From positions 1 to 23,835 of IMG/VR virus record IMGVR_UViG_3300045999_009983: DNA of 23,835 nt, one strand, 5' to 3'. Below are positions 20,893-22,378 of the stretch, in pieces. A program made the position numbers and the translations under genes. Below the pieces are notes generated by a model. The model worked only from the letters and a program-made list of their open reading frames with translations, was not told where the DNA came from and searched no databases. This stretch comes from a virus. The stretch's first letter is position 1; the number at the start of each line of letters is the position of its first letter.

Positions 20893-21348
20893 ATGGCAAC
20901 AACCGCTTTTCTTGCTAACAACCTCACCGACCTAGCGCTAGAGAGCTTCTTTCTCTTCAATGCTGAGGCTGGCACAGCTGCTCAATTTAAGTTAATGCTA
21001 TTGGGGGCAGGTTTTACGCCAAGCAAAACATATGCCACGATTAGCCAGATTGTCAGCAATGAAGTCTCCGGCGCCGGCTACACAGCTGGCGGCAACGTCA
21101 TAACTATCACAGTGGGAAACGTGAATAATACTCTTAACGAAACTAGAGCGGAGTGTCCAGGGTCTTCATGGCCCAATGCTTCGTTTTCGGTCAAAGCCGC
21201 AGTGGTTTACAAGGCCAAAGCTGGAAACTCCACTCATCAAATCGTGGGGACTTTTGTATATGATACCCTTCAAATCGTGACCGGGACAACGTTTTTTGTC
21301 GGAGCCTTTGAGATTCCCCTGAAAAACCTCGGCACCTTGCCAGCATGA
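20893..21348 (+). CDS. Conserved phage tail-region protein (gp17-like pattern)
   Basis: 151 residues with the layout of a common phage protein family: FKLMLLGAGFTPSKTYATIS, then NEVSGAGYTAGGNVITITV, then SSWPNASFSVKAAVVYKAK, and an ending with IVGTFVYDTLQIVTGTTFFV followed by IPLKNLGTL. The marks are the 'E.SG.GYT.GG' motif and 'W....A..AVVY'. Such proteins are found beside tail-tip genes of siphoviruses and are thought to be structural. Begins 2 nt after the upstream TAG and overlaps the next gene by ATGA. Confidence 0.75.
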   Translation: MATTAFLANNLTDLALESFFLFNAEAGTAAQFKLMLLGAGFTPSKTYATISQIVSNEVSGAGYTAGGNVITITVGNVNNTLNETRAECPGSSWPNASFSVKAAVVYKAKAGNSTHQIVGTFVYDTLQIVTGTTFFVGAFEIPLKNLGTLPA

Positions 21349-21731
21349 CGACGTTCCCATCAGTCCGACCCGATCCCGGCAGGTCCTACACCTTCGGCCA
21401 GTACCAGGGTGAGATGCTCACGTATCCGAATAAAGACGTGTCTAGATATATGACGGGAAACCAAATAACAAATCCAACTCTTACACTTCCGTATTCTATC
21501 CTTAGCACAGCCGAAAAAAATCTGCTGGTGGTTCATTATACAACTCATGGCATGTGGTTAGCGTTTGATCTGCCTGCGATGATTTGGTGTTACCTGACTG
21601 GTGATGATCATCCGGTTTTTTCATCGGATGACATATTTTTTTGGAGGGAGCCCTTCAGCTACTCGGCGAGGGGCGCAGGCTTCTGGGAGGGGAGTGCTGT
21701 GCTGCGGCGTGCGATCAGGATGATTGACTAG
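21345..21731 (+). CDS. Distal tail-tip protein, last gene of the late operon
   Basis: 128 residues: FPSVRPDPGRSYTFGQYQGE, TLTLPYSILSTAEKNLLVVH, then GMWLAFDLPAMIWCYL, FFWREPFSYSARGAGFWEG and a final strand SAVLRRAIRMID. This is the short phage tail protein plan: 'FP.I.P......G', strands, 'L...E...L..HY', 'F.LP', 'W......', strand. The N-terminal domain of the 419-residue gene shares it, so the two are probably distant paralogues. The gene ends at TAG 21729-21731. A candidate promoter starts inside its last codons, so the late operon seems to end here. No T-tailed terminator was seen directly after it. Confidence 0.7.
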   Translation: MTTFPSVRPDPGRSYTFGQYQGEMLTYPNKDVSRYMTGNQITNPTLTLPYSILSTAEKNLLVVHYTTHGMWLAFDLPAMIWCYLTGDDHPVFSSDDIFFWREPFSYSARGAGFWEGSAVLRRAIRMID

Positions 21732-21752
21732 GGGCCAGGGACCATATATGGT
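21724..21752 (+). promoter_or_regulatory. Candidate sigma70-type promoter for the zinc-ribbon cassette
   Basis: TTGACT (21724-21729, 5 of 6 to TTGACA), a 17-nt spacer, then TATGGT (21747-21752, 4 of 6 to TATAAT). The -35 lies inside the last codons of the tail-tip gene. The first start codon after it is ATG 21776, preceded by GAGG at 21765-21768. The -10 overlaps a palindrome, which suggests regulation. The -10 match is only moderate. Confidence 0.5.
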
Positions 21753-21765
21753 ATGTAGTGCCCTG
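21736..21765. promoter_or_regulatory. Palindrome ACCATATATGGT with flanking CAGGG/CCCTG arms (possible operator)
   Basis: ACCATATATGGT (21741-21752) is a perfect 12-bp palindrome covering the candidate -10. It is flanked by CAGGG (21736-21740) and CCCTG (21761-21765). A dimeric regulator site is plausible. An mRNA hairpin is possible, but no T-run follows, so a terminator is unlikely. Confidence 0.45.
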
Positions 21766-21775
21766 AGGGATCATC

Positions 21776-21883
21776 ATGAGCCACTGCGCTAATGAGGTTG
21801 GAATTGTTCCGTTTGCCTTGATTATTGGATTTTGCACGGGATGCCTGGCCTCCTGGTATTTCTTCGGCAAAATGTACAGATAA
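21776..21883 (+). CDS. 35-residue single-pass membrane protein
   Basis: ATG 21776 to TAA 21881-21883. A GAGG ribosome binding site at 21765-21768 is well spaced. The product starts MSHCANEVGI, has one hydrophobic helix with Gly and Cys (VPFALIIGFCTGCLASWYFF, residues about 11-30), and ends in GKMYR. It is the first gene after the candidate promoter, and its stop is 4 nt before the zinc-ribbon ATG. I do not recognise it; small phage membrane peptides of this size include holin-like and exclusion factors, but nothing in the sequence decides this. Confidence 0.55.
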   Translation: MSHCANEVGIVPFALIIGFCTGCLASWYFFGKMYR

Positions 21884-21887
21884 TCAA

Positions 21888-22145
21888 ATGCCAAAATATG
21901 AATGTCCATCTTGTGAAGAAGGGGAGACTTACGTCGCGCAGACTCTTCGGTTTTACAAAAGGGGAAGCAGGCTAGAAAGAAGGCGCAAGTGTAAGAATTG
22001 TGGTTTTGTTTTTAATACATATGAAGTCACAGATGTTGCCTGGTCTAGAAAACAAAGCCGGACCGCGAAGGCCCGGCGAGAAAAGGAGGTTGATTGCTTC
22101 CTGGAATCACAGAAACGGGCCACCAGCAGGACTAGGCCGGCTTAA
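21888..22145 (+). CDS. Stand-alone NrdR-like zinc-ribbon protein
   Basis: 85 residues from ATG 21888, chosen over an in-frame GTG/ATG-less extension to 21825 that would overlap the 35-residue gene. Two Cys pairs, C6/C9 (CPSC) and C35/C38 (CKNC), flank a 25-residue strand-loop, and LERRRKCKNCGFVFNTYEV is very close to the second half of the NrdR zinc ribbon, where 'RRRREC..C..RFTTYE' is diagnostic. NrdR is a repressor of ribonucleotide reductase genes that also has an ATP cone. Here the ATP cone is missing and is replaced by a basic, Lys/Arg-rich tail (RTAKARREKE). It is probably a small DNA- or RNA-binding regulator. It ends in a 4-nt overlap with a gene on the other strand. Confidence 0.7.
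   Translation: MPKYECPSCEEGETYVAQTLRFYKRGSRLERRRKCKNCGFVFNTYEVTDVAWSRKQSRTAKARREKEVDCFLESQKRATSRTRPA
22049..22077 (-). terminator. Intrinsic terminator of the leftward operon, antisense inside the zinc-ribbon gene
   Basis: On the minus strand GCCGGGCC-TTCGC-GGTCCGGC (22077 down to 22057) forms an 8-bp stem (one G-U pair) with a 5-nt loop, followed by TTTGTTTT (22056-22049). It lies about 65 nt after the last leftward stop (22142). On the plus strand the stem has an A-C mismatch and no T-tail, so it acts leftward. Confidence 0.8.
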
Positions 22146-22378
22146 GGCAGCCAGTCCGCTTCCTGGGGAGGTTTGGGTGGCTTAGAGATGTCAACGAGTC
22201 GGCCGCCATAGGGCTGGGGGCGCCGTGGATCTGCGGAACCACGGGGCTGGGAGAGCCTTTGCTGCTGAGCCTGGTTGACGCGGTGGTTCCAGGCCGCTAC
22301 GGCCCACAGCAGGGCCGTAGCGGCTGATCCAACTAGGGCGCCACATGCAGCGCCGTGGAGCCAGATGGCAAGAGTCAT
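22142..22378 (-). CDS. 78-residue membrane protein, last gene of leftward operon
   Basis: One long hydrophobic N-terminal helix (LHGAACGALVGSAATALLWA, about residues 7-26) followed by a polar, Gln/Arg/Pro-rich cytosolic-type tail (QAQQQRLSQPRG and DISKPPKPPQEADW). ATG 22378-22376 overlaps the upstream stop by ATGA, and its own stop at 22142-22144 overlaps the convergent zinc-ribbon stop. Not recognised. A hydrophobic helix with a Gly/Ala-rich face could be holin-like, yet the position in an SSB operon argues for an early or DNA-metabolism function. Confidence 0.65.
   Translation of the reverse strand: MTLAIWLHGAACGALVGSAATALLWAVAAWNHRVNQAQQQRLSQPRGSADPRRPQPYGGRLVDISKPPKPPQEADWLP

Follow-up and report, generated by a model that had tools for sequence, protein, structure and literature searches.

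An NrdR-type zinc ribbon without an ATP cone, encoded by a virus of probable picocyanobacterial host

What does a phage do with a protein that resembles the DNA-binding half of the repressor NrdR and lacks its nucleotide sensor? The question is posed by an 85-residue protein, P0001, encoded in a viral DNA of 23,835 nucleotides (IMG/VR record IMGVR_UViG_3300045999_009983), the whole of which we refer to as the window. Where phages without a ribonucleotide reductase (RNR) get their dNTPs when they infect slow-growing cyanobacteria is a question of current interest, and a sensor-less protein resembling half of a repressor offers a testable route to it, by binding either NrdR or DNA of its own. 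An initial annotation had described an orphan ribbon, sitting alone behind its own candidate promoter and a palindrome, and had suggested an anti-repressor, a derepressor of host nrd genes or a late regulator. The features discussed below are the following.

21345..21731, plus strand: minor tail protein (phrog_15525), the upstream neighbour
21724..21752, plus strand: promoter-like TTGACT-17-TATGGT, matching at 9 of 12 positions, which is chance level
21741..21752, plus strand: palindrome core ACCATATATGGT, at chance level and not an NrdR box
21776..21883, plus strand: 35-aa membrane-peptide ORF, MSHCANEVGIVPFALIIGFCTGCLASWYFFGKMYR, with one hydrophobic segment
21888..22145, plus strand: NrdR-type zinc ribbon gene (P0001, 85 aa; ribbon at residues 5-46)
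21900..22025, plus strand: coding stretch of the ribbon gene matched by PF22811 (35.3 bits in the six-frame search, above the cut-off)
22057..22077, minus strand: intrinsic-terminator-like hairpin of 8 bp, 7 of them GC, followed by TTTGTTTTCT, serving the SSB operon if functional and located inside the ribbon coding sequence
22142..22378, minus strand: convergent neighbour of 78 aa with a hydrophobic N-terminus and a homologue in contig L002
23484..23834, minus strand: SSB, start of the convergent operon

The ribbon protein

The ORF at 21888-22145 does encode an NrdR-type ribbon without the sensor, as had been recognised. Its translation (MPKYECPSCEEGETYVAQTLRFYKRGSRLERRRKCKNCGFVFNTYEVTDVAWSRKQSRTAKARREKEVDCFLESQKRATSRTRPA) carries the pairs CPSC and CKNC together with RRRKCKNCGFVFNTYEV; none of the four cysteines is missing, the RRR and TYE segments are preserved, and the frame is clean. 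The profile search that the initial annotation had called for placed P0001 in the NrdR ribbon family: Zn_ribbon_NrdR of Pfam (PF22811) matched residues 5-46 with 34.2 bits (cut-off 27.2, E 2.4e-8), and NrdR ranked first when the single sequence was used as a phmmer query. The ribbon-HTH family phrog_10675 matched residues 3-55 only (E 3e-4), and the helix-turn-helix (HTH) that follows the ribbon in proteins of that family is absent from P0001. In its place residues 51-80 form a basic tail that is predicted to be helical.

The absence of the ATP cone was likewise borne out. The full-length NrdR model TIGR00244 covers the protein at profile positions 2-49 of 147 only (27.1 bits, cut-off 124.65), and a profile made from the cone part of 80 picocyanobacterial NrdRs found no match in the six frames of the window, which excludes a cone hidden by a frameshift. 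Lacking the cone, P0001 would have no known means of sensing ATP or dATP.

The AlphaFold2 model (mean pLDDT 76) predicts a confident ribbon (pLDDT of its blocks 72-93), three-stranded as in solved NrdR structures, followed by a helix at 51-80. Among PDB matches to this model, rows 1-13 of the Foldseek search are all NrdR from E. coli and S. coelicolor; in VIA-align the top five rows are NrdR, with Z 5.7-6.9 and 1.5-1.8 A over 44-46 residues, and of the matches listed those to RNA polymerase subunits and TFIIS come after NrdR. Since host NrdR ribbons were part of the alignment from which AlphaFold2 built the model, the fold is not an entirely independent confirmation of the profile match.

Searching IMG/VR and GTDB contigs for direct homologues of P0001 gave nothing at E <= 1e-3, and phage records gave weak matches only. 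One of these, in an Acinetobacter 'phage', has glnK, amtB and ribD around it and appears to be host DNA. The protein is more similar to host NrdR (33-36%) than to the other phage ribbons aligned (22-28%). A recent insertion is not indicated by base composition, as the GC content of the gene (0.48) is close to that of the adjoining tail genes (0.49-0.52).

Gene neighbourhood, upstream sequence and NrdR boxes

The gene lies, as described, between tail genes on the plus strand and an SSB operon on the minus strand. Its stop codon overlaps that of the convergent 22142..22378 gene in TTAA, and the terminator-like hairpin within its coding sequence stands 65 nt past the last stop codon of the SSB operon. 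Another hairpin with a T-rich run lies inside the tail gene 21345-21731, at 21608-21631 on the plus strand, about 100 nt before its stop codon.

The terminase TerL is nearest to that of S-LBS1, a Synechococcus phage, with 448 bits, the score listed next being 157. S-LBS1 is the nearest cultured phage and a freshwater cyanosiphovirus (PMC6157547). A picocyanobacterial host is therefore likely, and the phage probably infects freshwater picocyanobacteria. In the presumed host family, 178 of 201 genomes have an NrdR that scores above the cut-off. In S-LBS1 the gene A39 is the last plus-strand gene before a convergent SSB operon, the same slot that the ribbon gene occupies here. Contig L002, with tail proteins 63-71% identical to those of the window, has neither the 35-aa ORF nor the ribbon gene, and other minus-strand genes follow; because both are missing there, we regard the two as variable cargo at a module junction. 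A search for right-end relatives by means of the tail genes returned L002 again and nothing else. At the level of structural genes, contig L014 has portal and capsid proteins 97-98% identical to those of the window and a terminase only 27% identical, which points to a terminase swap.

The ribbon gene does not sit alone. The 35-aa ORF separates it from the candidate promoter; this ORF is preceded by a Shine-Dalgarno-like GAGGG at 21765-21769 and ends 4 nt ahead of the ribbon ATG, for which no clear Shine-Dalgarno sequence is seen. Given this 4-nt gap the two are probably co-transcribed and possibly translationally coupled. The proposed promoter is one of two matches of 9 of 12 positions in the region, where 0.9 are expected, and carries no weight beyond chance. 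Nor does the palindrome stand out: the window has four other perfect 12-bp palindromes besides its core, which occurs there once and as RNA folds no better than shuffled sequences. It was also rejected as a terminator, since it has no T-run and shuffled sequences on average fold better. The window yielded no repeated candidate operator; late promoters upstream of the terminase fall outside it.

The palindrome (21736-21765) was further considered as an NrdR box that P0001 might bind. We derived boxes from the nrdJ upstream regions of 25 picocyanobacterial genomes (L195-L219), taking as the mark of an NrdR site paired boxes with a spacer of mostly 14-17 bp. Pairs were found in nine genomes, with the consensus ACACCANNNNTGGTGT and a spacer of 15-16 bp, in agreement with the published two-box architecture of NrdR sites (PMC12051234). 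These paired boxes score 8.4-19.3 bits with the host-derived matrix, values that are optimistic because these boxes also served to train the matrix. The pairs, ACACYRNNNNYRGTGT, stand some 90-170 nt ahead of the point where the nrdJ profile match begins and are unlike the general AT-rich consensus. With this matrix the window palindrome reaches 7.0 bits, against about 8-19 in host pairs, and ranks 29th in the window; it has no partner at an accepted spacing, which argues against an NrdR site independently of the bias of the matrix. The idea is thus contradicted. No pair in the window approaches the host pairs, the best totalling 14.3 bits in all. The picocyanobacterial box obtained here provides DNA for binding assays.

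Cone-less ribbons in other phages

A survey that combined a ribbon-profile scan of fetched contigs, one further IMG/VR scan and phage records found NrdR-type ribbons without the cone in many phages, so that P0001 is no orphan and belongs to a commoner protein type than first supposed. We found no description of them in the open-licence literature; they are widespread in phages and apparently undescribed. The ribbon occurs with an HTH, with a Cys-rich module, doubled, with an unknown domain (as in S-SRP02 and S38C3, where it is annotated 'NrdR') or alone, the stand-alone proteins having 60-100 aa. Ribbon+HTH or ribbon+Cys proteins occur in other phages as well as S-LBS1, whose A39 has a ribbon of 23.4 bits, below the PF22811 cut-off, then an HTH-like stretch and a Cys-rich part; its residues 1-97 match phrog_10675 with E 6e-32. 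In contig L015 a ribbon-only gene overlaps a separate HTH gene, the HTH and Cys parts of which resemble A39 by eye. Ribbon and HTH therefore occur both fused and side by side. Contigs L264, L266, L267 and L268 (5374-6072), which are cyanophage-like, encode a double ribbon with an HTH and a Cys-rich module (CxxCxFW...GWPDPE) downstream of SSB.

SSB, RusA or primase/polymerase genes adjoin several of the relatives. The order in L305 is primase/helicase, ribbon (75 aa), ThyX, exonuclease; in Rhodobacter phage RcZahn ThyX is followed by the ribbon (gp96, 71 aa); and in L321 the ribbon (76 aa) stands between RusA and a primase-like gene. The ribbons of L015, L305, L321 and RcZahn, the four scanned, all exceed the PF22811 cut-off. 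Stand-alone ribbon genes overlap thyX in two unrelated phages (L305:3001-3854 and L326, RcZahn 76724-76939). An unannotated 68-aa ribbon of S-CRES2 (24616-24819, L194:4001-4204) keeps the DNA-face residues except R12; RNR and dUTPase genes lie 3-4 kb upstream of it, the RNR gene at 3.8 kb, and no convincing NrdR boxes were seen near that RNR gene. The recurrence of such ribbons, some beside thymidylate synthase or replication genes, raises a general question: stripped-down copies of NrdR in several unrelated phages may hijack or block a switch of nucleotide synthesis.

Which surfaces of the ribbon are kept bears on this question. In NrdR, R12, R26-29 and R37 contact the DNA backbone and D15/R17 read bases (PMC9110341). 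In the E. coli protein Asp15, Arg17, Arg26, Arg28 and Arg37 face DNA, and the ribbon dimer is held by strand 39-45 together with Arg27, Arg29 and Glu42 (PMC12176259). All the DNA-contact positions (12, 15, 17, 26-29 and 37) are invariant in 80 picocyanobacterial NrdRs, with E at 15. P0001 has Y, Q, R, E, R, R, R and V at positions 12, 15, 17, 26, 27, 28, 29 and 37, and E at 42. The pairing set R27, R29 and E42, which corresponds to R31, R33 and E46 in the numbering of P0001 itself, is thus complete, and half of the DNA contacts are gone: R12, D/E15, R26 (now E) and R37 (now V) are lost, R28 is kept, and R17 is kept subject to the placement of a one-residue insertion that makes the hairpin longer than that of NrdR. 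Because of these losses P0001 is unlikely to read NrdR boxes as the host protein does.

Sixteen stand-alone phage ribbons, counting a Pan4 match that looks like a Lar-type finger rather than an NrdR ribbon, retain R27 in 15, R29 in 15 and E42 in 13 cases, and R26 in two, R28 in nine and R37 in five, from which we conclude that the pairing surface is better kept than the DNA face. Fisher's test gives p 1e-9 with relatedness ignored, with counts at positions 15 and 17, which hairpin length affects, entering it, and for residue sets compared after the alignment had been seen. Retention of R27, R29 and E42 may reflect a need for the fold or for homodimers alone.

Possible roles and known systems

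We tentatively prefer, as a possible reading, that P0001 is a small dimeric ribbon of the NrdR superfamily that serves as a nucleic-acid-binding regulator with an altered specificity of its own. We infer dimerisation in the manner of the NrdR ribbon pair, binding of zinc and DNA, and the target and timing of its action; by analogy with P2 Ogr, the dimer would bind nucleic acid with altered specificity and probably tune phage transcription. We chose this reading because the counterpart in the same slot of S-LBS1 is a ribbon-HTH protein, because ribbon and HTH are recurrently fused or side by side, as in L015, and because Ogr sets a precedent; the first two also favour a ribbon-type regulator acting on phage genes. 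Small size, basic character and a helical tail fit as well, as does the position of the gene directly behind tail genes. Against the regulator speak the lack of an HTH and of an Ogr_Delta match, the lack of a repeated operator in the window, and the closer similarity of P0001 to host NrdR than to the phage ribbons aligned.

The main rival reading is a dominant-negative antagonist of NrdR, which we consider somewhat unlikely. Here P0001 would pair with the host NrdR ribbon through the third strand and the R27/R29/E42 salt bridges, the mixed tetramers would fail on NrdR boxes, and host RNR would be derepressed, giving more dNTPs during phage replication. The complete pairing set beside a DNA face reduced to R17 (gap-dependent) and R28, and the same bias among the stand-alone ribbons, lend the anti-repressor idea some support, as do ThyX, primase, RNR or RusA genes near ribbons in L305, RcZahn, S-CRES2 and L321, the convergent SSB operon and the prevalence of NrdR in the presumed host family. 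A pneumococcal two-hybrid screen recorded an interaction of orf6 of phage Cp-1 with NrdR (PMC4840434), which we count on the same side. However, the window locus has no dNTP-related neighbours, the retention test ignores relatedness and used residues picked after the alignment was seen, and erosion of the DNA face is not general, as S-CRES2, RcZahn and ctLwi270 keep [DE]SR. P2 Ogr presumably also carries R27/E42-like residues, which may then serve the fold or homodimers. In S. coelicolor, moreover, R27 and R29 of NrdR are also at the DNA backbone (PMC9110341). The wider proposal, that amputated NrdR ribbons are carried independently by phages of different lineages, pair with host NrdR, poison it and unlock RNR during infection, P0001 being an example with an eroded DNA face, is doubtful in our view.

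It is improbable that P0001 is a non-regulatory accessory protein that binds nucleic acid in replication, recombination or packaging. Zinc ribbons do so in many machines, the fold matches listed after NrdR include RNA polymerase subunits and TFIIS, and replication or recombination genes adjoin several relatives, but fold and profile are specifically NrdR-like and the gene is on the structural strand, outside the SSB operon. More improbable still is that P0001 is what remains of an NrdR or ribbon-HTH gene in decay, functionless and carried as mosaic cargo at the module junction. The terminator inside the coding sequence, the lack of any match to P0001 at E <= 1e-3 among IMG/VR and GTDB contigs and the absence of both ORFs from L002, the closest tail relative, would fit decay; the intact cysteines, RRR and TYE, the clean frame with another ORF close in front of it, and the confident ribbon predicted by AlphaFold2 do not.

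In comparison with known systems, P0001 shares with NrdR (TIGR00244; 9fxk, 9gex, 7p37) the CxxC..CxxC pairs, the RRR segment, the F.TYE strand, the pairing residues and the fold (Z up to 6.9), and differs in the missing cone, the losses at R12, D/E15, R26 and R37 and the longer hairpin; unlike NrdR targets, the window has no paired boxes. A39 of the related cyanosiphovirus S-LBS1 (phrog_10675) has a ribbon N-terminus and the same position convergent with the SSB operon, but it is 152 aa long with an HTH and a Cys-rich C-terminus, is without R29 and E42, and shows low similarity. The stand-alone ribbons (L015/L303, 70 aa; L305; L321; S-CRES2; RcZahn gp96) are likewise ribbon-only, of 60-100 aa, with pairing residues kept; they often stand beside ThyX or replication genes, some have [DE]SR, and their tails are different. 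The Ogr/Delta model (PF04606) gave no match to P0001 at E up to 10, in a search whose HMMER filters drop weak hits, and the second cysteine pair is CX4C in Ogr and CX2C in P0001. Ogr of phage P2, a late activator that consists of a ribbon alone, has its gene behind those for the tail and is thus a phage precedent for ribbon-only regulators; P0001, too, is a small ribbon-only phage protein encoded behind tail genes.
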